Shown piece after piece: positions 1 to 64,000 of a stretch of 64,000 nt of DNA. Under the pieces are notes generated by a model. That model was not told the DNA's origin, made no database searches, and was given only the letters and a program-made list of their open reading frames with translations. The position numbers and the translations under genes were made by a program. How positions within the stretch are numbered: position 1 is the first letter of the stretch; the number at the start of each line of letters is the position of its first letter. This DNA comes from Alicycliphilus denitrificans K601 (GTDB lineage Bacteria; Pseudomonadota; Gammaproteobacteria; Burkholderiales; Burkholderiaceae_C), in NCBI RefSeq assembly GCF_000204645.1, contig NC_015422.1, positions 310,001 to 374,000 on the forward strand. The letters run 5' to 3'.

Positions 1-735
1 GCCGCCGCCGACGGCGTGCGCCCGGTGTCGCTGGAGATGGGCGGCAAGAACGCCGCCGTGGTGTTCGCCGACTGCGACTTCCAGGTGGCCGTGGACACGC
101 TCACGCGCTCGTGCTTCGAGAACGCCGGCCAGGTCTGCCTGGGCACCGAGCGCGTGTACGTGGAGCGCCCGATCTTCGCGAAGCTCGTCGCCGCCTTGAA
201 GGAACGCGCCGAGACCATGAAGCCCGGCCTGCCGTTCGACAAGGACACGAAGATCGGCCCGCTCATCAGCAAGAAGCACCAGGCCAAGGTGCTGGGCCTG
301 TACCAGAAGGCCAGGGACGAGGGCGCCACCATCGTCACCGGCGGCGGCATTCCCGACATGCCCGAGGCGCTGCGCGGCGGCTCGTGGGTGCAGCCCACCA
401 TCTGGACCGGCCTGCCCGAGACCGCCACCGTGGTGACGGAGGAAATCTTCGGCCCCTGCTGCCACATCAGCCCCTTCGATACCGAGGAAGAAGTGCTGGG
501 CAAGGTGAACGCCAACCGCTACGGCCTGGCCACGGCCGTGTTCACGCAGGACATCGCGCGCGCCAACCGCCTGGCGCACCAGATCGAGGTCGGCCTGTGC
601 TGGATCAACGCCTGGTTCCTGCGCGACCTGCGCACGCCCTTCGGCGGCTCCAAGCAGTCCGGCATCGGCCGCGAGGGCGGCGTGCACTCGCTGGAGTTCT
701 ATACCGAGCTGCGCAACGTGATGGTGAAGTTTTGA
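1..735 (+). CDS. dmpC: 2-hydroxymuconic semialdehyde dehydrogenase (5' truncated by window)
   Basis: Only the C-terminal 244 residues are visible; the reading frame is open to base 1, so the true start lies upstream (the family is about 485 residues). It oxidises 2-hydroxymuconic semialdehyde to 4-oxalocrotonate with NAD+ in the cytoplasm, the dehydrogenative branch of catechol meta-cleavage. The ALDH catalytic pair is present: Glu in LEMGGKN (fragment residue 12) and the nucleophilic Cys in NAGQVCLG (residue 46). The IFGP motif and the C-terminal PFGGSKQSGIGREGG segment are typical of this subfamily. The following hydrolase, hydratase, aldolase and decarboxylase genes fix its role. Another aldehyde dehydrogenase specificity is possible but unlikely in this context. 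Confidence 0.93.
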   Translation, partial: AAADGVRPVSLEMGGKNAAVVFADCDFQVAVDTLTRSCFENAGQVCLGTERVYVERPIFAKLVAALKERAETMKPGLPFDKDTKIGPLISKKHQAKVLGLYQKARDEGATIVTGGGIPDMPEALRGGSWVQPTIWTGLPETATVVTEEIFGPCCHISPFDTEEEVLGKVNANRYGLATAVFTQDIARANRLAHQIEVGLCWINAWFLRDLRTPFGGSKQSGIGREGGVHSLEFYTELRNVMVKF

Positions 736-738
736 ATC

Positions 739-792
739 AAATCGGCCTCCAGCGCTTGCCAAACAAGCGCAGGAAGCTACTTCAACGATAGC
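739..792 (+). repeat. Interspersed palindromic repeat, copy 1
   Basis: Fills the gap between the dehydrogenase and hydrolase genes. It reads AAATCGGCCTCCAGCGCTTG, a short loop, then CAAGCGCAGGAAGCTAC and ends in GATAGC. The paired arms AGCGCTTG and CAAGCGC form the core hairpin shared by about ten copies in this window. It may act as a transcript hairpin inside the operon. Confidence 0.8.
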
Positions 793-796
793 AAGC

Positions 797-3394: not shown

Positions 3395-4432
3395 ATGACA
3401 TTCAACGGCAAGAAAATCACCCTGCACGACATGACGCTGCGCGACGGCATGCACCCCAAGCGCCACCTGATGACGCTGGAGCAGATGAAAAGCGTGGCCC
3501 AGGGCCTGGACGCGGCCGGCGTGCCGCTGATCGAGGTCACCCACGGCGACGGCCTGGGCGGCGCATCGGTCAACTACGGCTTTCCCGCGCACAGCGACGA
3601 GGAATACCTGGGCACCGTGATCCCGCTCATGAAGCAGGCCAAGGTCAGCGCCCTGCTGCTGCCCGGCATCGGCACCGTGGACCACCTGAAGATGGCGCAC
3701 GGCCTGGGCGTGCACACCATCCGCGTGGCCACGCACTGCACCGAGGCCGACGTGAGCGAGCAGCACATCACGGCCGCGCGCAAGCTGGACATGGACACCG
3801 TGGGCTTCCTGATGATGGCGCACATGAACTCTGCCTCCGGCCTGGTCAAGCAGGCCCGGCTGATGGAGGGCTACGGCGCCAACTGCATCTACGTCACCGA
3901 CTCCGCCGGCTACCTGCTGCCCGAGCAGGTGAAGGAGCGCATCGCCGCCGTGCGCGCCGCGCTCAAGCCCGAGACCGAGCTGGGCTTCCATGGCCACCAC
4001 AACCTGGCCATGGGCGTGGCCAACTCCATCGCCGCCATCGAAGCCGGCGCGAACCGCATCGACGCCGCTGCCGCCGGCCTGGGCGCGGGCGCGGGCAACA
4101 CGCCCATGGAGGTGCTGGTGGCCGTGCTCGACCGCATGGGCCTGCAGACCGGCGTGGACGTGTGGAAGATCCAGGACGTGGCCGAGGACCTGGTGGTGCC
4201 GCTGATGGACTTCCCCATCCGCATCGACCGCGACGCGCTCACGCTGGGCTACGCCGGCGTGTACGGCAGCTTCCTGCTGTTCGCCAAGCGCGCCGAGAAG
4301 AAGTACGGCATCCCCGCGCGCGACCTGCTCGTGGAGCTGGGCCGGCGCGGCATGGTCGGCGGCCAGGAAGACATGATCGAGGACACGGCCCTGACCATGG
4401 CGCGCGAGCGCGGCATCAAGGTCGCCGCCTGA
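3395..4432 (+). CDS. dmpG: 4-hydroxy-2-oxovalerate aldolase
   Basis: Splits 4-hydroxy-2-oxovalerate into pyruvate and acetaldehyde. It is an HMGL-like TIM barrel of 345 residues. Active-site residues are in place: Arg16 and metal ligand Asp17 in LRDGMH, His20, and the metal-binding His199 and His201 in GFHGHHN. The ATG at 3395 is preceded by AAGGAGG with good spacing, so it is preferred over longer in-frame readings that run back through dmpF in another frame. It is the partner of DmpF in the channelling complex. Confidence 0.95.
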
Positions 4433-5294: not shown

Positions 5295-6263
5295 ATGCAG
5301 CGAAGAGACTTCATGGCCGCCGCCGCGCTGGCGGGCCTGGCCCCGGCCTGGGCGCAGGCCGGCTATCCCGCCAAGCCCGTGCGCATGATCGTGCCGTTCC
5401 CGCCCGGCGGGCCGACCGACGTCATGGGCCGCACGGCGGCCAAGGCCATGGGCGACAGGCTGGGCCAGCAGTTCGTGGTCGAGAACAAGGCCGGCGCGGG
5501 CGGCAACATCGGCACCGACGCCGTGGCCAAGGCCGCGCCCGACGGCTACACCATCGGCCTCACGGCCATCAGCAGCCTGGCCATCGCGCCGCACCTGTAC
5601 AGCAGCGTGCCGTTCAACGTCGAGAAGGACTTCGTGCCCATCTCGCTCGTGGGCACCACGCCGTGCGCGCTCGTCATCCACCCGGCGGCGCCGTTCTCGG
5701 ACCTCAAGGGCATGGTGGCCTATGCCAAGGCCAACCCCGGCAAGCTCAGCTATGCCACGTCCGGCATCGGCACCAGCAACCACCTGGCGGCCGAGCTGCT
5801 GCAGTCGGTGGCCGGCATCCAGCTCACCGGCGTGCCGTACAAGGGCTCGAGCCAGATCGTGCCCGACCTGCTCTCGGGCACCGTCATGATGAGCATGGAA
5901 AGCTCGCTCGCCACCACCTTGCAGCATGTCAGGGCGGGCAAGCTCAAGGCCATCGCGGTCACGTCGCCGCAGCGCGCCAAGGCGCTGCCCGACGTGCCCA
6001 CGGTGGCCGAGTCCGGCTACCCCGGCTTCGAGGTCGAGACCTGGTTCGGCCTGGTCGCGCCGGCGCGCACGCCGCAGGCCGTCGTGGACAAGCTGCACGA
6101 CGCCTGGGCCGCGGGCTCCGCCGCGCCCGAGGCGCGCGCCGCCTTCGACAACATCTCGGGCAACCTGCGCGTGACCACGCCGCAGCAGTTCGCCGAGTTC
6201 ATCCGCGCCGAGAACCGGCGCTGGGGCGACCTGATCCGCAAGCTCGGCATCAAGGCCGACTGA
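5295..6263 (+). CDS. Tripartite tricarboxylate transporter (Bug) substrate-binding protein
   Basis: A periplasmic TctC/Bug receptor of 322 residues, expected to bind a small carboxylate. The N-terminus carries a twin-arginine-like leader (QRRDFM, then an alanine-rich stretch ending AWAQA). Mature-protein signatures are YPAKPVRMIVPFPPGG, AGAGGNIGTDAVAKA and PDGYT. It lies between the decarboxylase and the tautomerase, preceded by an AAGGAGA site, so it is probably cotranscribed with the meta pathway. No TctA or TctB membrane subunits are in the window, so it is an orphan receptor here. The ligand is unknown; an aromatic acid or its degradation product is an inference from context. Confidence 0.92.
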   Translation: MQRRDFMAAAALAGLAPAWAQAGYPAKPVRMIVPFPPGGPTDVMGRTAAKAMGDRLGQQFVVENKAGAGGNIGTDAVAKAAPDGYTIGLTAISSLAIAPHLYSSVPFNVEKDFVPISLVGTTPCALVIHPAAPFSDLKGMVAYAKANPGKLSYATSGIGTSNHLAAELLQSVAGIQLTGVPYKGSSQIVPDLLSGTVMMSMESSLATTLQHVRAGKLKAIAVTSPQRAKALPDVPTVAESGYPGFEVETWFGLVAPARTPQAVVDKLHDAWAAGSAAPEARAAFDNISGNLRVTTPQQFAEFIRAENRRWGDLIRKLGIKAD

Positions 6264-6481: not shown

Positions 6482-6494
6482 CCGGTTCATACGT

Positions 6495-6543
6495 AAAAAA
6501 TGCCTGTAGCGCTTGCCTGGCAAGCGCTGACAGCTATCAAAAC
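6495..6543 (+). repeat. Interspersed palindromic repeat, copy 2
   Basis: Reads AAAAAATGCCTGTAGCGCTTG, loop, CAAGCGCTGACAGC and TATCAAAA. It fills the 64-base gap between convergent dmpI and the MBL hydrolase gene, where its hairpin could serve as a transcription barrier for both. Confidence 0.8.
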
Positions 6544-6545
6544 AT

Positions 6546-7184
6546 TCAGGTGTTGCCCACGTAGGGATTGCTGCGGCGCTCGCGCCCGAAGGTGCTCTCC
6601 GGCCCGTGGCCGGGGATGAACACCGTCTGGTCGCCCATGGGCCACAGGCGCTGGGTGATGCTGTCAATCAGCTGCTGGTGGTTGCCGCCGGGGAAGTCCG
6701 TGCGGCCGATGCTGCCCGCGAACAGCACGTCGCCCACGAAGCAGCGGTCGACCTGCGGCGCGTGGAACACCACGTGGCCCGGCGTGTGGCCCGGGCAGTG
6801 GCGCACGTGCAGGGTCTCGCGGCCGATGGTGACGGTGTCGCCGTCGTGCAGCCAGCGCGTGGGCGTGAAATGCAGCGCCGGCGGAAAGCCGAACATCTGG
6901 CCCTGCTGGGGCAGGCCGTCGATCCAGTACTGGTCGCCCTCGTGCGGGCCGATGATGGGCAGCGCCAGGCGCTGGGCCAGCTCCCCCGTGCCGCCCGCGT
7001 GGTCGATGTGCGCGTGCGTGAGCCAGATGGCCTTCAGGTGCAGGCCCCGCCGCTTCGCCTCGGCCAGCAGCACGTCCAGATCGCCGCCAGGGTCGATCAC
7101 GGCCGCATCCATGGTCTGGTCGCACCAGACGAGGGAGCAGTTCTGCTGGAAGGCGGTGACGGGGATGGTGTGGTAATGCAGCAT
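6546..7184 (-). CDS. MBL-fold metallo-hydrolase (glyoxalase II-like)
   Basis: A cytoplasmic metallo-beta-lactamase-fold hydrolase of 212 residues. It shows the zinc motif THAHIDH (56-62), a later His in CPGHTPGH, Asp in GDVLF and the final His in PGHGPES. The short form without the C-terminal glyoxalase II substrate domain matches the YcbL-like group, which hydrolyses thioesters such as S-lactoylglutathione. The start at 7184 gives a normal family N-terminus; a longer frame upstream is not needed. It sits convergent to the meta operon and is probably independent of it. Confidence 0.85.
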   Translation of the reverse strand: MLHYHTIPVTAFQQNCSLVWCDQTMDAAVIDPGGDLDVLLAEAKRRGLHLKAIWLTHAHIDHAGGTGELAQRLALPIIGPHEGDQYWIDGLPQQGQMFGFPPALHFTPTRWLHDGDTVTIGRETLHVRHCPGHTPGHVVFHAPQVDRCFVGDVLFAGSIGRTDFPGGNHQQLIDSITQRLWPMGDQTVFIPGHGPESTFGRERRSNPYVGNT

Positions 7185-12656: not shown

Positions 12657-13646
12657 ATGCAATTCAATAAGAATCGGCGCCTGGCGCTTATCCATCAGGC
12701 ACTGGCAGCTATTGCTTTGGTAGCGACAGGTCTGCCGGTGCAGGCACAGAACTGGCCCGAGCGGCCCATCAAGCTCGTCGTGCCGTACCCGGCCGGCGGC
12801 AATGCCGACAACACCGCGCGGCTGCTGGCCACGCAGCTGTCGGCCCGCCTGGGCCAGCAGGTGGTGGTGGACAACCGCCCGGGTGGCAGCGGCACCATCG
12901 GCGCGGCGGCCGTCGCCAAGGCCGCGCCCGACGGCTACACGCTGCTGCTGGACGCCACGGCCTTCACCGTCAACCCCAGCCTGTTCGCCAAGCTGCCGTT
13001 CGACGCGGCCAAGGACTTCGCGCCCATCTCGCTCGTCATGCAGGCGCCGCTGCTGCTGGTGGTGCCCGCCGTGTCGCCGCTCAAGACCGTGGCCGACCTG
13101 GTGCAGGCCGCCAAGGCCCGGCCGGGGCAGCTCACCTACGCATCGGCCGGCAACGGCGGCGCGCAGCACCTGGCGGGCGAGCTGTTCAAGCAGGGCGCCA
13201 AGGTGTCCATGACGCACATTCCCTACCGCGGCGGCGCGCCCGCGCTCACCGACCTGATCGGTGGCCAGGTGGACCTGATGTTCAGCGCCACCACGGCCAG
13301 CGGCCCGTTCGTCAAAAGCGGCAAGCTGCGCGCGCTGGCCATCAGCTCCGTCCAGCGCACGCCGGGCTGGGAGCAGGTGCCCACGGTGGCCGAAGCGGGC
13401 CTGCCGGGCTTCCAGGTCAACGAATGGAACGGCCTGTTCGCACCCGCGGGCACGCCGCAGCCGGTGCTGCAGCGCCTGGAAGCCGAGACCCGCGCCATCG
13501 TCGCCAGCCCCGAGATGAAGAAGCGCTTCGCCGAACTGGGCGTGCAGGGCGTGGGGTCGAGCGCGCAGGAGTTCAAGTCCTTCGTGCAGACCGAGACCGC
13601 CAAATGGGCCGGCGTGATCCGCACCAGCGGCATTCGCATGGATTGA
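12657..13646 (+). CDS. Bug/TctC-type substrate-binding protein with repeat-derived signal peptide
   Basis: A periplasmic receptor of 329 residues. Mature signatures are WPERPIKLVVPYPAGGNAD, NRPGGSGTIGAAAVAKA and PDGYTL. The signal peptide (about residues 1-28, ending VQAQ) is odd: residues 5-23 (NKNRRLALIHQALAAIALV) are encoded by a copy of the interspersed palindromic repeat. The ATG follows AAGGAGACAGAC, so this start is sound. It is probably cotranscribed with the upstream dehydrogenase (24-base gap). Export by the Sec route is expected, as the leader is basic and then hydrophobic. Confidence 0.9.
   Translation: MQFNKNRRLALIHQALAAIALVATGLPVQAQNWPERPIKLVVPYPAGGNADNTARLLATQLSARLGQQVVVDNRPGGSGTIGAAAVAKAAPDGYTLLLDATAFTVNPSLFAKLPFDAAKDFAPISLVMQAPLLLVVPAVSPLKTVADLVQAAKARPGQLTYASAGNGGAQHLAGELFKQGAKVSMTHIPYRGGAPALTDLIGGQVDLMFSATTASGPFVKSGKLRALAISSVQRTPGWEQVPTVAEAGLPGFQVNEWNGLFAPAGTPQPVLQRLEAETRAIVASPEMKKRFAELGVQGVGSSAQEFKSFVQTETAKWAGVIRTSGIRMD
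12669..12724 (+). repeat. Interspersed palindromic repeat, copy 3, within a coding region
   Basis: Reads GAATCGGCGCCTGGCGCTTA, loop, then GGCACTGGCAGCTATTGC and ends TTTGGTAGC. The right arm is diverged but the flanks (CGGCGCCTGGCGCTT, GGCAGCTAT) match copy 4. It lies in frame in the signal peptide of the Bug receptor at 12657. Confidence 0.7.
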
Positions 13647-13688
13647 AGTGAAACCGGGCACTGCATGCACTACCGCGCACGGGCATTC

Positions 13689-13778
13689 ACTCCCTCTCCC
13701 TCTGGGAGAGGGCGGGGGTGAGGGCCCGCGCCATGCCACTGCCTCCACCCCAACCCTCCCTCGCAAGCGGGAGCGCAG
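13689..13778. repeat. REP-like inverted doublet
   Basis: Contains a perfect hairpin CCCTCTCCC-TCT-GGGAGAGGG (13692-13712) followed by GGGGGTGAGGG. A second, inverted unit (CACCCCAACCC, then a CTCCC/GGGAG hairpin) follows about 30 bases on. The two units are near reverse complements of each other, the layout of a BIME. It lies downstream of the Bug receptor at 12657 and upstream of the Bug remnant. Confidence 0.7.
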
Positions 13779-13818
13779 AGTTGCATGCGCAGCGCCATGG
13801 ATAACTGAGGAGAGTCCT

Positions 13819-13938
13819 ATGAGTTTCAAGAAAAATAGGCCTCTGGCGCTTGCTGGACAAGCGCTGGCAGCTACGCACTTGATAGCGTCCGGCGCCTGCT
13901 TCGCGCAGGCGGGTGGCTATCCCGCCAAGCATGGATGA
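13819..13938 (+). pseudogene. Remnant of a Bug substrate-binding protein (signal peptide only)
   Basis: A 39-codon frame starting at an ATG preceded by GAGGAGAG. It encodes a signal peptide (SFKKNRPLALAGQALAATHL and then IASGACFAQ) and the first mature residues GGYPAK, where an intact Bug protein would continue with PIR or PVR; here it ends in His-Gly-stop. The N-terminal layout matches the intact receptor at 12657, including the embedded palindromic repeat in the same frame. The simplest reading is a duplicate receptor gene deleted after its 37th codon or so. A functional small peptide cannot be excluded. Confidence 0.75.
13831..13886 (+). repeat. Interspersed palindromic repeat, copy 4, within the Bug remnant
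   Basis: The best-preserved coding copy: AAAAATAGGCCTCTGGCGCTTG, loop, CAAGCGCTGGCAGCTAC, ending TTGATAGC. It encodes residues 5-22 of the remnant signal peptide. Confidence 0.82.
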
Positions 13939-13992
13939 CTGCAAGAAAAGAAGTCCGCCATTCCTGTTTTTGTTTTCAGCCGTGGAGACCCC

Positions 13993-14949
13993 ATGAAATC
14001 CCTCAAGAAATACCTGTTGGCCGCCTGTGCCTGCATCGCCCTCGCCGCGCACGCCGCGTTCCCCGAGCGGCCCATCACCATCGTCGTGCCCTACGCGCCG
14101 GGCGGCGCGGCCGATGCCGTGGCCCGCGTGATCGCCAGCCGCCTGGGCACCAGGCTCGGCGGCAGCGTGATCGTGGACAACAAGGCCGGCGCCAGCGGCA
14201 CCATTGGCGCGGGCTACGTGGCCAAGGCGCAGGCCGACGGCTACACCATGCTCTACGACGCCACGCCGTATTCCATCAACCCGCATCTGTTCCCCAAGAT
14301 GCCGTATGCGGCCAACGCGCTGCAGCCGCTGTCGCTGGTGCTGCTGGCACCCAACGTGCTGATCGTGCCGGCCAGCGCGCCGTTCAAGAGCGTGGGCGAT
14401 CTCATCGCCAAGGCCAAGGCGGAGCCGGGCAAGCTCAACTTTGCCTCGGGCGGCAGCGGCACGGTGCAGCGCCTGGCGGCGGAGCTTTTCCGCCAGAAGC
14501 TCGGCCTGGACATGGTGCACGTGCCCTACAAGAGCGGCGGCCCGGCCATCACCGACGTGATGGCGGGGCAGGTGGACTTCATGTTCGGCACCGTGGCCGC
14601 CACCGCGCCGCATATCGCGGCCGGCAAGCTGCGCGCGCTGGCCGTGTCCTCGCCCGAGCGTTCCAGGCGCCTGCCCGATGTGCCCACGGTGGCCGAGGCG
14701 GCCATCCCCGGCTACGAGGCCTATGAGTGGAACGGCATGTTCCTGCCCGCGGGCACGCCCGCGCCCATCGCCGCGCAGTTGCACAAGGCGCTGGCCGAAG
14801 TGCTGCAGGAGGACGAGGTGCGCCAGCGCCTGGCCGACATGGGCGCGCAGCCCATCGGCTCCACGCCGGCCGAGTTCGCCGCCTTCCTCAAGAAGGAAGA
14901 CGCGAAATGGGGCGAGGTGGTGCGCAAGGGCCACATTAAGCTGGATTAA
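13993..14949 (+). CDS. Bug/TctC-type substrate-binding protein
   Basis: A periplasmic receptor of 318 residues with an ordinary Sec signal (KSLKKYLLAACACIALAAHA). Motifs are FPERPITIVVPYAPGGAAD, NKAGASGTIGAGYVAKA and ADGYTM. The upstream sequence GTGGAGACCCC gives a usable ribosome site. It lies just after the remnant and REP doublet, five bases before the second LigI-like amidohydrolase, repeating the receptor/enzyme arrangement of 8127-9987. The ligand is unknown. Confidence 0.91.
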   Translation: MKSLKKYLLAACACIALAAHAAFPERPITIVVPYAPGGAADAVARVIASRLGTRLGGSVIVDNKAGASGTIGAGYVAKAQADGYTMLYDATPYSINPHLFPKMPYAANALQPLSLVLLAPNVLIVPASAPFKSVGDLIAKAKAEPGKLNFASGGSGTVQRLAAELFRQKLGLDMVHVPYKSGGPAITDVMAGQVDFMFGTVAATAPHIAAGKLRALAVSSPERSRRLPDVPTVAEAAIPGYEAYEWNGMFLPAGTPAPIAAQLHKALAEVLQEDEVRQRLADMGAQPIGSTPAEFAAFLKKEDAKWGEVVRKGHIKLD

Positions 14950-14954
14950 GGCCC

Positions 14955-15830
14955 GTGGCGCAGCCCCTGCTCTCCGCGCCCGTGCCGCACTCCGTGGGCC
15001 TGAACCGGCCCGCGCGCACGCTGCCGCCGCTGGCCTGCGACAGCCACATGCACATCTTCGACCCGCGCTTCGCCCCATCGCCGCACTGGCGGCGCCAGCC
15101 GCCCGACGCGCCCGTGGCCGCCTACCGGCAATTGCAGCAGCGCCTGGGCACGCGGCGCGCGGTGGTGGTCACGCCATCCACCTACGGCACCGGCAACGCC
15201 TGCACGCTGGATGCCCTCGATCAACTGGGCGACGATGCGCGCGGCGTGGCCGTGGTGGCGCAAGACGTTCAGGACGCCGAGCTCGACCGCCTGCACGCGC
15301 GCCGCGTGCGCGGGCTGCGCGTGAACTTCGTCTCGCCGCAATCCTGGGGCGAGACCACGCCGCAGATGCTGGCCACGCTGGCGCGCAAGGCGGCGCGCCT
15401 GCCGGGCTGGCACATCCAGGTCTTCATGCATCCGGAGCAGATCGTGGCATTGGAGAGCGTGCTCGCAGCGCTGCCCGTGCCGCTGGTGGTGGACCACCTG
15501 GGCCGCATCGATCCGGCCCAGGGGCAGCGTGCAGAAGCTCATGGCGCGTTGCGCCGGCTGCTGGACGGCGGCAATGCCTGGGTCAAGCTCTCGGGCGCCT
15601 ACATGCGCTCGACCGCGCCCGCGTATGCGGATACGCTGCCGCTCGCCCAGGCGCTGGTGCGCGCCGCGCCCGAGCGCCTGGTGTGGGGCAGCGACTGGCC
15701 GCACACCACCGAGGCGCCGGGCACCGTGAACGATGCCGGCCTGGTGGACCTGCTGCGTGCCTGGGCCGGATCGGACGCGGCGATGGACCGCATCCTCGTG
15801 GACAACCCGGCGCGCCTGTACGGCTTTTGA
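14955..15830 (+). CDS. Amidohydrolase-family (COG3618, LigI-like) hydrolase, paralogue
   Basis: A 291-residue TIM-barrel hydrolase with CDSHMHIFDPRF near the N-terminus, LVVDHLGRI, WVKLSGAY and WGSDWPHTTE. It is clearly paralogous to 9115-9987: LGTRRAVVVTPSTYGTGNAC corresponds to LGTTRAVLVTPSTYGTDNRC. The GTG start is close to the receptor stop codon, suggesting translational coupling. A lactone-type substrate is inferred from the LigI/galactarolactone-isomerase resemblance and from the SMP-30 lactonase gene that follows. Confidence 0.82.
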   Translation: MAQPLLSAPVPHSVGLNRPARTLPPLACDSHMHIFDPRFAPSPHWRRQPPDAPVAAYRQLQQRLGTRRAVVVTPSTYGTGNACTLDALDQLGDDARGVAVVAQDVQDAELDRLHARRVRGLRVNFVSPQSWGETTPQMLATLARKAARLPGWHIQVFMHPEQIVALESVLAALPVPLVVDHLGRIDPAQGQRAEAHGALRRLLDGGNAWVKLSGAYMRSTAPAYADTLPLAQALVRAAPERLVWGSDWPHTTEAPGTVNDAGLVDLLRAWAGSDAAMDRILVDNPARLYGF

Positions 15831-46062: not shown

Positions 46063-46122
46063 ATGCTATTATTTTCGTTGCTGCTTGCGCTTATCCCATG
46101 AGCGCAAGCGCCCCATTTTGAT
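46063..46122 (-). repeat. Interspersed palindromic repeat, copy 6
   Basis: Reads GCTATTATTTTCGTTGCTGC, then GCGCTTATCCCATGAGCGC, then AAGCGCCCCATTTTGAT. It is the family in reverse orientation with a GCGCTT/AGCGC core. It lies in the 266-base gap between the divergent GMC oxidoreductase gene and the MCE operon; nothing else was recognised in that gap. Confidence 0.72.
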
Positions 46123-49138: not shown

Positions 49139-49819
49139 ATGAAGACTATCGAAACAATAGCTGTCTGCGCTTGCTGGAAGGGCGCCAGGGCCGTTTTTTG
49201 CATGATGCTCGCGGCCCTGGCCGCGGGCTGCTCCGTGCTGCCCGCGCCGCCCGTGCGCGCCGACGTGTACGACTTCGGCCCCGGCCCCATGCAGCCCGCG
49301 GGCGACGCGCAGGCCGCCGTGCCGCTCGCCCCCATCGTGCTGGCAGCCGTGGACACCGTGGGCATGCCCGAGGGCAGTTCCGCCCTGCTGTACCGCCTGG
49401 CCTATGCCAACGTCCAGCAGCTGCGCCCCTACACCCAGGCGCGTTGGAGCCAGCCCCCCGCCGACCTGCTGGCCCAGGCGCTGCGCGAGCGCCTGGGCCA
49501 GCGCCGCATGGTGCTCTCGGGCGATGGCGGCGCGGCCCTGCAGCTCGACCAGATCCGCCAGGCCAGCGTGCTGCGCGTGCAGCTCGAAGAGTTCAGCCAG
49601 ATCTTCAGCACCCCCGATGCCAGCACCGGCCTGGTGCGCGTGCGCGCCATGCTGGCGGACGCCGGCCCTGCCGGCGAGGCGCTGCAGGCCCAGCGCGTGT
49701 TCATCGCCAGGCGCCCGGCCGCCACGTCCGACGCGGCAGGCGGCGCCCGAGCCCTGGCCGAGGCCGCGGCGCAGGTGGCCGACGAACTCGCTCACTGGGT
49801 GCAGCAGCAGGGCCGCTGA
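49139..49819 (+). CDS. ABC-type transport auxiliary lipoprotein (PqiC-like) with repeat-derived N-terminus
   Basis: A 226-residue outer-membrane lipoprotein. The lipobox LAALAAGC ends the signal peptide and the mature part begins SVLPAPPVRADVYDFGP, the pattern of ABC_trans_aux/PqiC proteins that complete MCE transporters. Residues 2-21 (KTIETIAVCACWKGARAVFC) are encoded by a reverse-oriented copy of the interspersed repeat. An alternative ATG at about 49202 would leave only eight or nine residues before the lipobox Cys, too short for a signal peptide. Last gene of the operon. Confidence 0.87.
   Translation: MKTIETIAVCACWKGARAVFCMMLAALAAGCSVLPAPPVRADVYDFGPGPMQPAGDAQAAVPLAPIVLAAVDTVGMPEGSSALLYRLAYANVQQLRPYTQARWSQPPADLLAQALRERLGQRRMVLSGDGGAALQLDQIRQASVLRVQLEEFSQIFSTPDASTGLVRVRAMLADAGPAGEALQAQRVFIARRPAATSDAAGGARALAEAAAQVADELAHWVQQQGR
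49142..49199 (-). repeat. Interspersed palindromic repeat, copy 7, within a coding region
   Basis: Reads CTATCGAAACAATAGCTGTC, GCGCTTGCTGGAAGGGCGC, CAGGGCCGTTTTTTGC: the family in reverse orientation with all outer blocks preserved. It covers codons 2-21 of the auxiliary lipoprotein. Confidence 0.75.
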
Positions 49820-50072: not shown

Positions 50073-50314
50073 TGCGGGGCATCCTGTCCGAAACGTTGGA
50101 ATGTGTGCATGGGTCATGGCCTCCAGGAAGGTCGCAGGCTGACCGGCGGCGGAAGCTGTATGCGGGAACGCCTACAGATCCGGCCGCGGCCAGGCTCCGC
50201 AGGCGTCATCAACCGCGCGACGCGGTGGTTTCAGGAGGAACGCCATCTCCTGGCGGCCGCTATACCCCGTGGATGGGAGAATCGGGGCCGCTCCCCCATT
50301 CCCCATCCCCTTCC

Positions 50315-56250: not shown

Positions 56251-56257
56251 ATTTGGG

Positions 56258-56311
56258 CCAAATATGGCCCGGGTGCTTGCCTGCAGAGCGCCAGGCGCTG
56301 TGGTTTTGATA
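56258..56311 (+). repeat. Interspersed palindromic repeat, copy 8
   Basis: AAATATGGCCCGGGTGCTTGC, loop, GAGCGCCAGGCGCT, ending TTTTGATAG. It fills the 63-base gap between the convergent dienelactone hydrolase and efflux transporter genes. Confidence 0.7.
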
Positions 56312-56313
56312 GA

Positions 56314-57882
56314 TCAGTGCGCCCCCGCCGCCGCGTCGGCGCTGCCCTTGGATGCGTGCGGCGCGTGGGCCAGCCAAACCAGCGGGATCAGGAACAGGAA
56401 CAGCACGGCCGAGGCGTAGAAGATGTCGTTGGCCGCGAGCATGAAGGCCTGCTGGTTCACCAGCCGCTCCACCTGCGCGAGCGCCTGCTCGGGCGTGAAG
56501 CCGCCGACCTGCAGGCCCTGCAGCGCCTGGGCCAGCGCCGTGTTGCCGTGATGCAGGCCCTCGGTGAGCTGGGCGTGGTGCAGCGTGGCACGGCGCTCCC
56601 ACAGCGTGGTGGCGATCGACGTGCCCACGGCGCCGGCGGTGATGCGCATGAAGTTCGACAGGCCCGAGGCCGCGGGGATGCGGTCGGGCGTGATCTCCGA
56701 GAGCGTGACGGTCACCAGCGGGATGAAGAAGAACGCCATGGCGATGCCCTGCACGATGGTGGGCACCATGATGGTCGCCAGGTCGGCCTGGGTGTTGAAG
56801 TTGGAGCGCATCCACAGCACCAGCGCGAACACCAGGAACGCGAAGGTTGCGAAGCGCCGCGGGTCGGTCCTGCCGATGTTCTTGCCCACCCAGGGCGAGA
56901 GCACCATGGCCAGAAGGCCCACGGGCGCCATTACCTCGCCGGCCTGCGTGGCGGTGTAGCCCATGTACTGCTGCAGCCACAGCGGCAGCAGCACCACGTT
57001 GCCGAAGAACAGGCCGTAGCCCACGGCGGTGGCGAGCGCGCCGGCCCAGAAGTTGCGGTTGCGAAACAGCGTCAGGTCCACCACGGGGTGGTCGTCGCCG
57101 CGCTCCCAGATCAGGAAGGCCACGAGGCCGACAGCCGCCACCAGCGCGCAGGCCACGACCCAGGGCGACTCGAACCAGTCGTGCTCCTTGCCGATGTCCA
57201 GCATGATCTGCATGGCGCCCACCCAGATCACGAGCAGCGCCAGGCCTATGGAGTCGATGGGCAGCTTGCGCCGCACCGTCTCGCGCTTGTGGAAGATGCC
57301 CCAGGTGACCAGCACGGCCACGATGCCCACCGGCACGTTGATGTAGAAGATCCACGGCCAGGCCATGTTGTCGGTGATCCAGCCGCCCAGGAGCGGCCCG
57401 GTGACGGGCGCGATCAGCGTGGTCATGGACCACATGGCCATGGCCAGCCCGGCGAGCGCGCGCGGGTAGCTCGACAGCAGCAGCGACTGCGACAGCGGGA
57501 TCATCGGCCCCGCCACGAAGCCCTGCAGCGCGCGCGCCGCGATGAGCATCGCCATGTTGGGCGCCAGGCCGCACAGCAGCGAGGCGATGACGAACAGCGT
57601 GACGCTGGCCACGAACAGCCGCACCTGCCCGAAGCGCTGCGACAGCCAGCCCGTGAGCGGCACCGCGATGGCGTTGGCCACCGCGAAGCTGGTGATGACC
57701 CAGGTGCCCTGCGTGGGGCTCACGCCCAGGTCGCCCGCGATGGCGGGCAGCGACACGTTGGCGATGGACGTGTCGAGCACGTTCATGAACGTGGCGGCCG
57801 ACAGGGCCAGCGTGCCCCAGGTGCGCGCGCTGCCGGTGAGCGGCGGTGGCGGCAGGGGCGCCGGGTGGGCGGGGGAGGCCAT
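56314..57882 (-). CDS. emrB: DHA2-family MFS drug efflux transporter (EmrB-like)
   Basis: A 522-residue inner-membrane antiporter with about 14 hydrophobic segments. DHA2 signatures are NVLDTSIANVSLPAIAGDLG in the first helix, GWLSQRFGQVRLF after helix 2 and RALQGFVAGPMIPLSQSL in helix 4. It starts two bases after the adaptor gene and forms a tripartite pump with the adaptor and outer-membrane genes. Confidence 0.93.
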   Translation of the reverse strand: MASPAHPAPLPPPPLTGSARTWGTLALSAATFMNVLDTSIANVSLPAIAGDLGVSPTQGTWVITSFAVANAIAVPLTGWLSQRFGQVRLFVASVTLFVIASLLCGLAPNMAMLIAARALQGFVAGPMIPLSQSLLLSSYPRALAGLAMAMWSMTTLIAPVTGPLLGGWITDNMAWPWIFYINVPVGIVAVLVTWGIFHKRETVRRKLPIDSIGLALLVIWVGAMQIMLDIGKEHDWFESPWVVACALVAAVGLVAFLIWERGDDHPVVDLTLFRNRNFWAGALATAVGYGLFFGNVVLLPLWLQQYMGYTATQAGEVMAPVGLLAMVLSPWVGKNIGRTDPRRFATFAFLVFALVLWMRSNFNTQADLATIMVPTIVQGIAMAFFFIPLVTVTLSEITPDRIPAASGLSNFMRITAGAVGTSIATTLWERRATLHHAQLTEGLHHGNTALAQALQGLQVGGFTPEQALAQVERLVNQQAFMLAANDIFYASAVLFLFLIPLVWLAHAPHASKGSADAAAGAH

Positions 57883-59118: not shown

Positions 59119-60540
59119 TCAGCTCGCGGCGTAGCCGCCGCCGAGGGCGCGCATCACGCCGGCCTGGGCGTCCAGGCGGCGCGCGGCCAGGTCGACGGCC
59201 AGGCGGCGCTGGGCCAGCACCTGCGTCTCGGCCGAGAGCACCTGCAGGTAGTTGCCCAGGCCAGCCTCGTAGCGCTTGCGCGCGATGGCGTAGGCGGCCT
59301 CGGCCGCCTCGCCGGCCTGCCGCTGCTCGGCGATCTGGCGCTCGACCGACGCGCTCGATGCGAGCTGGTCGGCCGCGTCGCGCACGGCGTCCAGCAGCGC
59401 GGCGTTGTAGCTCTCCACCGCCGCGTCCAGGTCGGCCGACTTGCCTGCCAGGTTGGCGCGCAGGCGGCCCGCGTCGAAGACAGGCAGGCGCAGCGCCGGG
59501 CCCACGCCCCATTCGCGGCTGCCCGCCTCCACGAAGTTGCCCAGGCCCATGCTGGCCAGGCCCACGAAGGCCGTCAGGCTCACGTTGGGGTAGAACTGCG
59601 CGCGCGCCACGGCCACGTCCTGCGCGCTGGCCTCCACGCGCCAGCGCGCGGCGGCCACGTCGGGGCGGCGGCCCAGCAGGTCGGCGGGCAGCACGGCGGG
59701 GATTGCTGCGGATTGCATAGCTGCCAGCGCAGGTGGGGTAAGCGCTAGAGCCGCTTTTGGCTCTCCAGCCAGCGCACCCAGCGCGTTGCGCGTGAGGGCG
59801 GCCTGTTCGCGCAGGGCCTCGATCTGCTGGCGCGCCTCGGGCAGCGCGCCCTCGCTCTGGCGCAGCTCCAGCCGCGTGTCCAGGCCGGCGCTCACGCGCT
59901 GCTGCACCAGGCGCAGCACCTCGCCGCGCTGGGCCAGGGTGCGCTCGGCCACCTGCAGCTGCTCCTGCAGCCGCGCGAGCTGCAGGTAGGCGTGCACCAC
60001 GTTGGCCGCGAGCAGCAGGCGCGCGGCATCGGCGTCGGCGCGCGCGGCGCGGGCCGTGCCCAGGGCCGATTCGAGCGCGGCGCGGTTCTTGCCGAAGAAG
60101 TCGATCTCCCAGCTGCCCGACAGGCGCGCCGTGTCGATGTCGAGGATGCTGCCGGCCTGGCCCGGCGGGTAGGGGCCGTTCTCGCTGTAGCGCTGGCGCG
60201 TGAGGTCGGCGCTCGCGTTCACCTGCGGGCCGAGCGCGGCGCGCGCGGACCGCGTGAACGCCTCGGCGCGCGCGATGCGCGCGGCCGCCTGGCGCAGGCC
60301 GGGGTTGCCGTCCAGCGCCTGCTGCACCAGCGCGTCGAGCTGCGCGTCGCCGAAGGCGCGCCACCAGTCGGGCGCCACGGCGGCGGCTGGCGCGCCGGGA
60401 TCGACGAGCGTGGCAGCGTCGCGCAGCCGCGCCTGCGGGGCGATGCCCGACATGTCGGCGCAGCCCGTGAGCGCCAGCAGCGCCGCGGCCAGCGCGGCGG
60501 CATGGAGCAGGGCGGGAGGGGTGGAGAGCTGGTTCTTCAT
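59119..60540 (-). CDS. Outer-membrane efflux lipoprotein (NodT/OprM family)
   Basis: A 473-residue TolC-type channel with lipobox LLALTGC (Cys27), two repeated helical/beta units and the conserved LLGRRPDVAAARWRVEASAQDVAVARAQ pattern. A palindromic-repeat copy encodes residues about 260-277 (LTPPALAAMQSAA), in the linker just before that motif. Frame and length remain normal, so the insertion is tolerated. It lies 34 bases upstream of the adaptor gene in the operon. Confidence 0.91.
   Translation of the reverse strand: MKNQLSTPPALLHAAALAAALLALTGCADMSGIAPQARLRDAATLVDPGAPAAAVAPDWWRAFGDAQLDALVQQALDGNPGLRQAAARIARAEAFTRSARAALGPQVNASADLTRQRYSENGPYPPGQAGSILDIDTARLSGSWEIDFFGKNRAALESALGTARAARADADAARLLLAANVVHAYLQLARLQEQLQVAERTLAQRGEVLRLVQQRVSAGLDTRLELRQSEGALPEARQQIEALREQAALTRNALGALAGEPKAALALTPPALAAMQSAAIPAVLPADLLGRRPDVAAARWRVEASAQDVAVARAQFYPNVSLTAFVGLASMGLGNFVEAGSREWGVGPALRLPVFDAGRLRANLAGKSADLDAAVESYNAALLDAVRDAADQLASSASVERQIAEQRQAGEAAEAAYAIARKRYEAGLGNYLQVLSAETQVLAQRRLAVDLAARRLDAQAGVMRALGGGYAAS
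59712..59762 (-). repeat. Interspersed palindromic repeat, copy 9, within a coding region
   Basis: Plus-strand reading TTGCATAGCTGCCAGCGC, an 8-base loop, TAAGCGCTAGAGCCGCTTTT matches the family in reverse orientation. It is read in the forward family orientation by the efflux outer-membrane gene. Confidence 0.75.
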
Positions 60541-61153: not shown

Positions 61154-62329
61154 TCAGCTGCGCCCGGTGCGAGTCAGGTAGCGCTTGCGCCAGAAGAACA
61201 CGGTGAGCGCCGCGGCGATCGCGGCCATGGAGCCCATGGCCCACCAGAAGCCTTCCCGCGTGTGCACGAAGGGGATGAACTCGAAGTTCATGCCGAAGAT
61301 GCCGGCGATCAGGTTCAGCGGCAGGAACACGGCGGTGAGCACAGTGAGCGTGCGCATGATGTCGTTGGTGCGGTTGCTCTGCACCGAGAAGTGCATCTGC
61401 AGCACGGCCTCGGTGCTCTGCTCCAGGCGGCGCACGTGGTGCACCACGCGCTCGATGTGCTCCAGCACGTCGCGCGTGCGCACCTTGAGCAGGTCGAGCT
61501 CGCGCAGCGCGGCGGGCGTGTCGGGCTGCGGCGTCCAGGTGGAGAGGGCCTCGCTCCAGGCCTGCACGGCGGCGCGCTGGTCTTCGCAGATCTCGTCGAG
61601 CTGGTGCAGGGCCAGGCGCGCGCCGAGCAGCGCGCTCCAGTCGGTGAAGCGCGTGCTGGGCCGCAGCAGCTCGGTCTGCCAGTGGTCGAGCTGGCGCGAG
61701 AGCTCGCGGCGCAGGTCCAGGTAGTTGTCCACGATGTGGCCCACCACGCGCACCATCAGGTCGGCGGGGCTGGTGGGCAGCCGGGCGCCAGCCACGGGGC
61801 CGGCGCGCAGCTCGCGCACCACGGCCTCGGCAGGCGTGGCCGCGGGCGCGGCGGGCGCTGCCTGCGAGAGCAGCCGCGCGGCATAGGCGTCGCGCACGCC
61901 GCAGTCGCCCGGGTGCACCGACAGCAGCACCTGGTCGAACACGGCGAAGCCCACGGGGCTTGTGTCTATGCGCCGCAGCACGGGCAGGCCCCCGCGCGCG
62001 GCGGGCCGGGCCAGCGGCGCGCCGGCATCGGCCTGCGCGGTGCCCAGGCGCCGCACCACGAGCAGGTCGTACTGCGAGGTGTAGTCGTAGTGCGAGGGCA
62101 GCTGCGCGTTGAGCAGGTCGGAGACGTGCAGGTCCACGAGCTGCAGCCCCGCCACGGCCTGCAGCATGGCCTGCAGGCGCGGCAGCTCGGCGCTGAAGGC
62201 CGCGCGCGTGCAGGCGATCCAATAGAAGCCCTGCGCAGGCGGCGTCCCGGGCAGCTGCGCGAGCTCGCTGGCGCCCACGCCCGGCTGGAGGTGGAAGACC
62301 CGGAACGGCTGCGGGGATTTTTCAGGCAA
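61154..62329 (-). CDS. CorA-family divalent cation transporter
   Basis: A 391-residue transporter with a large cytoplasmic N-terminal domain and two C-terminal membrane helices; the pore motif GMN occurs in IAGIFGMNFEF. The C-terminus is short and basic. Closest in style to CorA/ZntB-like proteins (Mg2+, Co2+ or Zn2+). The start is probably TTG at 62329, with GGAGG five bases upstream; both lie in a repeat copy. No ATG gives a full-length protein. Confidence 0.87.
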   Translation of the reverse strand: MPEKSPQPFRVFHLQPGVGASELAQLPGTPPAQGFYWIACTRAAFSAELPRLQAMLQAVAGLQLVDLHVSDLLNAQLPSHYDYTSQYDLLVVRRLGTAQADAGAPLARPAARGGLPVLRRIDTSPVGFAVFDQVLLSVHPGDCGVRDAYAARLLSQAAPAAPAATPAEAVVRELRAGPVAGARLPTSPADLMVRVVGHIVDNYLDLRRELSRQLDHWQTELLRPSTRFTDWSALLGARLALHQLDEICEDQRAAVQAWSEALSTWTPQPDTPAALRELDLLKVRTRDVLEHIERVVHHVRRLEQSTEAVLQMHFSVQSNRTNDIMRTLTVLTAVFLPLNLIAGIFGMNFEFIPFVHTREGFWWAMGSMAAIAAALTVFFWRKRYLTRTGRS

Positions 62330-62368
62330 ATCGGCCTCCAGCGCTTGTACGGCAAGCGTGAGTAGCTC

Positions 62369-62371
<3 letters not shown>
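62327..62371 (+). repeat. Interspersed palindromic repeat, copy 10
   Basis: CAAATCGGCCTCCAGCGCTTG, loop, CAAGCGTGAGTAGCTCTTA. It occupies the whole hemB-corA gap: the hemB stop codon lies at one edge and the TTG start of the CorA-type gene at the other, with the ribosome site GGAGG read on the minus strand. Confidence 0.75.

Positions 62372-64000
<1,629 letters not shown>

Follow-up and report, generated by a model that had tools for sequence, protein, structure and literature searches.

The gene at 12657 of the window (the whole 64-kb stretch of DNA that was analyzed) encodes a Bug/TctC-type tricarboxylate receptor, Bug1, whose product matched PF03401 TctC over residues 54-325 (271.5 bits, E 1.1e-80). 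The DNA of its leader matches an interspersed repeat, as does that of a short open frame at 13819. The relevant features of the window are:

12657..13646 (+), Bug1, Bug/TctC-type tricarboxylate receptor gene of 329 codons with an apparently repeat-derived leader (PF03401 TctC)
12657..12749 (+), Bug1 leader MQFNKNRRLALIHQALAAIALVATGLPVQAQ, a signal peptide by composition with a presumed cleavage site (hydropathy 2.33 after a net charge of +3)
12659..12728 (+), repeat copy of the Bug1 leader, encoding its n and h regions (33.6 bits; score reached by 0/500 synonymous redraws)
13819..13938 (+), 39-codon remnant, read by comparison with Acidovorax sp. MR-S7 as the BugA leader, a short tail and a stop
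13820..13891 (+), repeat copy of the remnant (R1 match G000:C1:323820-323891, 58 bits; 53.0 bits with the 72-copy profile)
13993..14949 (+), BugC, neighboring Bug receptor with, by contrast, an ordinary leader (repeat score at its start not above 8 bits)
727..796 (+), intergenic repeat copy (profile match)
6484..6546 (+), intergenic repeat copy (profile match)
46063..46120 (-), weak repeat copy (14.5 bits)
49141..49210 (-), repeat copy directly upstream of a lipoprotein-like start on the + strand (profile match)
56251..56315 (-), repeat copy (profile match)
59701..59770 (-), in-frame copy inside the called gene 59119-60540 (-) (40 bits, same strand, frame 2)
62316..62385 (+), copy containing the end of the opposite-strand gene 62369-63376 (gene calls)

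An initial annotation had placed one repeat in the starts of the genes at 12657 and 13819 and had named two further copies, at 739-792 (+) and 56258-56311 (minus strand). A profile was built from six other copies in the window, one of which (59701-59770) lies inside a called gene, with the two gene copies excluded. It found both named copies and scored 39.7 bits at 13822-13887 and 29.5 bits at 12672-12725, against a maximum of 9.8 bits in ten Markov-1 random windows. With a second profile, built from 72 copies after four gene-start copies had been left out, the remnant copy scored 53.0 bits and the Bug1 copy 33.6 bits. The start of the repeat coincides with the start codon in Bug1, where position 1 of the profile is the G of the ATG (12659).

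The leaders were then compared with synonymous redraws of their own codons. In each of eight leaders, and with each of two codon tables, all 500 redraws stayed below the score of the real DNA, the highest redraw scores being 28.3 bits for the 13819 remnant (real 53.0) and 22.7 bits for 12657 (real 33.6). Among 1192 called genes, 36 scored at least 10 bits; synonymous redrawing left 0-2 of these matches and shuffling of codon order 0-3 (three draws each). Since redraws and shuffles lose the matches, the resemblance lies in the DNA and not in the protein alone. Codon-level chance, a doubt raised in the initial annotation, is ruled out by the redraws, and the DNA of leader and repeat is the same.

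The copy at 49141-49210 is in the opposite frame, and an upstream ATG would extend the lipoprotein-like product through it. The window also holds a fluoride riboswitch at 50193-50259 (-) (48.8 bits; gathering score 34), the sole Rfam match at the gathering threshold.

The repeat family and comparable elements

The 66-bp consensus of the repeat, GGATTTTAAGCCAAATCGGCCTCCAGCGCTTGCCCGGCAAGCGCTGGCAGCTATCAATTCAATAGCA, was built from 76 copies of the A. denitrificans K601 genome (G000). It contains one 10-bp palindrome and a smaller inverted pair, and two of the six frames are open throughout. One of these, the leader frame, translates as DFKPNRPPALARQALAAINSIA, a basic stretch followed by Ala/Leu-rich residues. 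Model R1 gave at least 149 matches (150 of 3410 first-look candidates were scored). A 1.26-Mb sample, composed of 60 stretches spread across the genome plus the window, held 162 copies of at least 10 bits by a profile trained in part on some of those same copies, against none in the same DNA reversed. These were distributed between genes (108), inside genes (33), at gene ends (14), at gene starts (6) and at the edge of a stretch (1), where gene starts are those of our own simple gene caller and at least three copies outside its genes (M48, GSDH and the remnant) are leaders. In eight of the 162, an opposite-strand gene ends within the repeat, each time at almost the same repeat position (for example, window 62316-62385, L199 3722-3791 and L191 15466-15535).

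Most internal copies (25/33) use one of the two open frames, with 11 of the 14 same-strand copies and 14 of the 19 opposite-strand copies doing so. A Pfam scan of nine repeat-bearing genes identified a CCA-adding-type polymerase, a molybdopterin oxidoreductase, a radical SAM protein with DUF3362, a SpoU methylase (TrmJ), TruB, a TilS-type ligase, a Mur ligase and two enoyl-CoA hydratase relatives. The copy in the TrmJ-like protein, read in one of the less common frames, coincides with gaps of 10 and 5 residues in the solved TrmJ chain 4xbo; the copy in the MurD-like protein occupies a colinear stretch that is followed by an 8-residue gap. A search of solved structures with the YgiQ-like protein returned none at 1e-5. 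A further in-frame copy (L044, G000:C1:2488634-2488702) lies inside a gene that resembles, by eye, one for an rRNA methyltransferase.

Stem pairing in 94 intergenic copies showed no excess over shuffled columns (70% vs 69%; 83% vs 83%). With the stems kept no better than that, a maintained RNA hairpin was rejected as the main constraint, and the palindrome seems to be a property of the ancestral element rather than of a maintained RNA.

The hosts of the repeat include Acidovorax, Diaphorobacter and further Comamonadaceae genera. In a survey with the leader peptide, 18 of 200 genomes of the family gave a match; an order-wide survey with R1 matched 2 of 200, under stricter filters and with 24 scored candidates per genome, and says little on range. 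A phage collection gave no match. Within the consensus no terminal inverted repeat, a feature of MITEs, was evident by eye, and no pair of filled and empty sites was found. The partner of REP palindromes is a RAYT (Y1) transposase, and one Y1_Tnp match (44.4 bits) is present in G000. The tetranucleotides that mark one end of REP palindromes, GTAG or CGTC (PMC3733652), are absent from both strands of the consensus as read by eye.

When translated in another frame, with one stop written as Q, the consensus matched positions 1-22 of PF06231 DUF1010 below the cut-off (19.7 bits against 25). A repeat copy of G000 (C1:2198552-2198620) was likewise touched by the DUF1010 model, at 23.1 bits. The N-terminal part of this family may be translated repeat. 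Within an integron region of L081 (NZ_KY913898.1, 1501-1705), a copy of the repeat precedes an OXA-10 gene and overlaps a frame annotated as DUF1010. One full DUF1010 match (128.7 bits) and two partial ones are clustered at G000:C1:3844847-3850651, and may be cassettes of a chromosomal integron.

Several described repeats resemble this one in part. The Rickettsia palindromic elements are small interspersed palindromes of about 150 bp found in frame inside unrelated protein genes (PMC10969869), as the present repeat is; they are set apart by description, the latter being 66 bp long, found in Comamonadaceae and used for leaders. Enterobacterial intergenic repeats with open frames (RU-1/ERIC, RU-2/YPAL and RU-3; Delihas 2007) are also reported fused to genes (PMC2759123, PMC2229807), and the signal peptide predicted for YPO1552 consists in part of RU-2 (PMC2759123). 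These are 103-168 bp long, and the signal-peptide predictions given for them concern a few putative exported proteins (YPO1552, YPO2495 and YE2643). The Comamonadaceae repeat, in contrast, serves several conserved exported proteins with orthologues in many genera and includes a probable donor-recipient swap.

The motif GCTTAT(N)5AAGCG is listed for Acidovorax ebreus as a potential novel motif with 114 copies, 107 intergenic and 5 in genes (PMC5217627). Its letters and spacing make it a variant of the repeat core, and it is probably the same repeat; the listing names no leader or coding role for it. A Polaromonas naphthalenivorans motif from the same listing was rejected on its spacing. BRE, an interspersed repeat of Bordetella and Comamonadaceae, is likewise found partly within coding sequence; it is about 90 bp long, and Acidovorax sp. 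JS42 has 1 copy and A. avenae subsp. citrulli 4 (PMC3110155). Its copy counts do not fit, a distinction drawn from description rather than from comparison of sequences. The repeats treated in passages on Rhodoferax ferrireducens (PMC2755013) are CRISPRs. Searches of the open-licence literature gave no account of the Comamonadaceae repeat as a leader. The initial annotation's statement that it knew of no earlier description stands, within these searches, for the leader role, and needs amending in two respects already in print: the core motif in A. ebreus, and repeat-gene fusions, with RU-2 as a signal-peptide precedent.

Leaders of the Bug receptors

A scan of named genomes for relatives of Bug1 yielded 551 candidates, of which 80 loci were listed and 79 could be scored. 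The four closest of the 79 scored, among those listed, carry a repeat leader: Diaphorobacter nitroreducens (41.2 bits), Acidovorax sp. MR-S7 (52.1), A. kalamii (48.9) and a Burkholderiaceae MAG (34.5). Bug1 is 79-93% identical to these four (mature parts 83-95%). The comparison with orthologues lacking the repeat that the initial annotation had proposed could be made with the other 75, all below 10 bits; they begin with Comamonadaceae ALPHA2B (77%) and Ramlibacter cellulosilyticus (76%), and most are far more distant receptors. The repeat is thus present in some relatives and absent from others. The 12 non-repeat relatives among the 16 closest listed have different leaders, so within this comparison the refuting outcome named in the initial annotation, the same leader residues without the repeat in the DNA, did not occur.

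Another 59 relatives included two close matches with a repeat leader, G010 (93%, 41.2 bits) and G003 (88%, 30.4 bits). G010 and the D. nitroreducens record probably belong to one species, as do G136 and MR-S7, and these pairs do not count as independent evidence. Among 39 Bug-like genes in the 1.26-Mb sample the repeat forms the leader of one and lies just upstream of the start of one more, which rules out the repeat leader as a trait of all Bug receptors. The receptor set of G000 is very large, with 151 matches to a Bug receptor at E 0.001 or better.

The remnant at 13819, which begins MSFKKNRPLALAGQALAATHLIASGACFAQA, was aligned with the MR-S7 locus. Window 13808-13930 matched MR-S7 3491-3605, the start of a receptor gene termed BugA, at 79.7%, and window 13984-14100 matched MR-S7 5507-5623, the start of BugC, at 90.6%. 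These two starts are about 1.9 kb apart in MR-S7; relative to it, the rest of BugA and the whole of BugB are missing from the window. On this alignment the remnant is identified as the leader of BugA. The alternative of placing the remnant with the second receptor of D. nitroreducens was given up in favor of BugA on comparison with MR-S7 and A. kalamii.

The gene order in MR-S7 is Bug1, BugA (repeat leader, 64.0 bits), BugB (ordinary leader) and BugC; in A. kalamii it is Bug1, BugA (51.6 bits), BugB (ordinary leader) and a gene like the one at 14955 of the window; and in the MAG it is Bug1, BugA (27.8 bits) and a BugC-like gene. The initial annotation had thought it probable that the genes at 12657 and 13819 descend from one event. 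This is not shown: both leaders are of the repeat type in each of the four closest relatives, and identity between the product of 12657 and the relatives' second receptors is about 38%.

In D. nitroreducens and G003, BugA is missing from this place and Bug1 is followed by a gene in which a BugB body, 92% identical to MR-S7 BugB, carries a repeat leader (51.6 and 49.6 bits, respectively); the BugB starts of MR-S7 and A. kalamii gave no repeat match. The leader DNA of D. nitroreducens BugB is 83% identical both to the MR-S7 BugA leader and to the window remnant, and leader-DNA pairs involving A. kalamii or the MAG are 68-73% identical. This arrangement implies an exchange between BugA and BugB, and it is probable that the repeat leader of BugA passed to BugB in Diaphorobacter. 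The simplest account is a deletion that would have joined the BugA leader to the BugB body; the alternative is a fresh insertion in BugB, with BugA lost separately.

Leaders of unrelated exported proteins

The repeat recurs at the starts of unrelated genes. A search with the leader of the remnant, from which 18 matches were translated, found it as the leader of an M48 protease (G000:C1:4828617-4830176; PF01435; NCBIfam BepA model 244.6 bits, cut-off 570) and of a TupA-like protein (G000:C1:3730346-3731167; PBP_like_2; NCBIfam TupA 240.6 bits, cut-off 400). A frame-blind scan of the sample added a GSDH-type protein (G000:C1:2990876-2992051; PF07995), and a leader-peptide search of 200 genomes of the family added a DUF2147 protein and Bug receptors. 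M48, TupA, BugA and DUF2147 were found by peptide query in the leader frame, so the search itself accounts in part for the frame that they share. A protein-database search with the leader residues alone gave 64 candidates, all with E above 10. A deacetylase-like gene (named by eye; L161 13688-13786) has a candidate leader, VQSLRGVLRAIFLIAASTSPLGASAQ, in the opposite open frame, which scored 21.7 bits against a best of 3.5 among 500 redraws.

Orthologues were found in 87 (M48), 85 (TupA) and 64 (GSDH) genomes, and the 5' DNA of the best 30 loci of each was scored. At least 10 bits were reached at the start in 11/30 M48, 14/30 TupA and 9/30 GSDH loci, the remainder giving lower or no scores. In trees of the mature proteins the repeat-positive loci are intermixed with negatives and many forks are weak. 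This intermixing makes the number of gains uncertain; several gains are likely. The initial view of the repeat as a route to gain or swap signals is supported by its recurrence in unrelated exported proteins and by the one visible receptor swap.

The quality of the leaders as signals was also assessed. Nine intact repeat leaders have the basic n region and following hydrophobic h region of a Sec signal, with a 12-residue hydropathy of 1.95-2.58; the net charge before the hydrophobic stretch is +1 in one of them and +2 to +4 in the other eight. The remnant leader reaches 1.39, and the consensus in the leader frame 0.96. Of the 94 copies classed as intergenic, 3 passed a crude signal rule in the leader frame and 4 more passed a weaker rule; the other open frame was about equal (2 and 5), and 0.7% and 1.8% of frames in non-repeat intergenic DNA passed the crude and weaker rules, respectively. 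Some of the three crude-rule passers may be leaders whose start was missed by the gene caller. The hydropathy of 0.96 and the 3/94 passing copies rule out the raw repeat as a ready-made signal. The initial claim that the translated repeat suits Sec is accurate as to order, basic and then Ala/Leu-rich, and overstated as to strength; judged by composition, the repeat would be raw material that needs tuning rather than a finished signal. The initial observation is confirmed as real and is larger than first reported. The account given of it is partly supported: the core is correct, while in one respect it falls short and in another it claims too much.

Proposed origin and tuning of the leaders

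These observations suggest that an interspersed repeat of Comamonadaceae was, very probably, taken over as the leaders of exported proteins, then tuned, and on one occasion swapped between receptors. The two open frames of the consensus would let copies of the repeat sit in frame in genes. A copy arriving where the gene of an exported protein begins would have replaced the n and h regions of the old leader, with the start codon usually at the left edge of the repeat and the c region retained. Subsequent substitutions would have raised the hydrophobicity, and the resulting leaders presumably work with Sec. Such a leader could then pass to a neighboring receptor by deletion, as proposed for BugA and BugB in Diaphorobacter. 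No site was found with the old leader intact beside a fresh insertion, and absence of the repeat in outgroups could be loss. The element is best read as a protein-coding palindromic repeat of Comamonadaceae, with the signal peptide as one of its uses.

That each gene received one old insertion which then decayed vertically, with no continuing supply, is a real possibility, if short of probable. The repeat has the same offset in most positive M48 loci (109-115 nt, one 133 nt) and in most positive TupA loci (79 nt), and many more distant orthologues have low scores, all of which favors such decay. The offset in the TupA of G070 and G113, however, is 103 nt, 24 nt further upstream; the GSDH of G070 has a near-consensus copy (50.2 bits) with its start codon within the repeat, at the left edge of which the start codon lies in G000; and the leader of BugB was apparently gained by exchange.

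It is improbable that the repeats at gene starts are kept for a role in DNA or mRNA (translation start, mRNA end or regulation) to which the signal-peptide reading is secondary. The AGCTAT-to-TAGC block does remain recognizable even in distant orthologues, the M48 of G071 (56% identical) still scoring 33.9 bits, but all M48, TupA and GSDH start copies of at least 10 bits share one strand and one frame, and pairing at the level of shuffled columns gives no sign of a maintained RNA stem. The reverse direction, in which the repeat family arose from a spreading stretch that coded for a signal peptide, is very improbable: its leader frame is indeed one of just two open frames of the consensus, but the copies are many and mostly intergenic (108/162), their consensus is a palindrome and makes a weak signal, and copies inside enzymes use the other open frame (14/19 opposite-strand internal copies). 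A chance or convergent resemblance of Ala/Leu-rich signal peptides in GC-rich codons to the repeat is hardly credible, for although a basic and Ala/Leu-rich composition is common to leaders with and without the repeat, the redraws (0/500 for each of eight leaders; 0-2 against 36 among the 1192 genes) contradict it, and 37 of the 39 Bug-like genes have no match above 5 bits near their start, one of the other two having its copy upstream of the start.

If leaders were taken over from the repeat as proposed, the repeat might also be a standing, renewable supply in this clade, with copies still arriving at or converting the starts of exported-protein genes, from which conserved periplasmic proteins repeatedly renew their signal peptides by insertion, by conversion between dispersed copies and by exchange between neighboring receptors, a suggestion that is tentative and rather unlikely. 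The idea of the protein-coding palindrome, so far described mainly from Rickettsia, is extended here to a large free-living family, with copies within core enzymes, and the repeat may account for part of a Pfam family of unknown function (DUF1010). The origin of new signal peptides is seldom seen directly. With a DNA source, unrelated recipients, repeat-free relatives and one probable exchange set together, the gain, tuning and swapping of leaders become open to test in environmental species.
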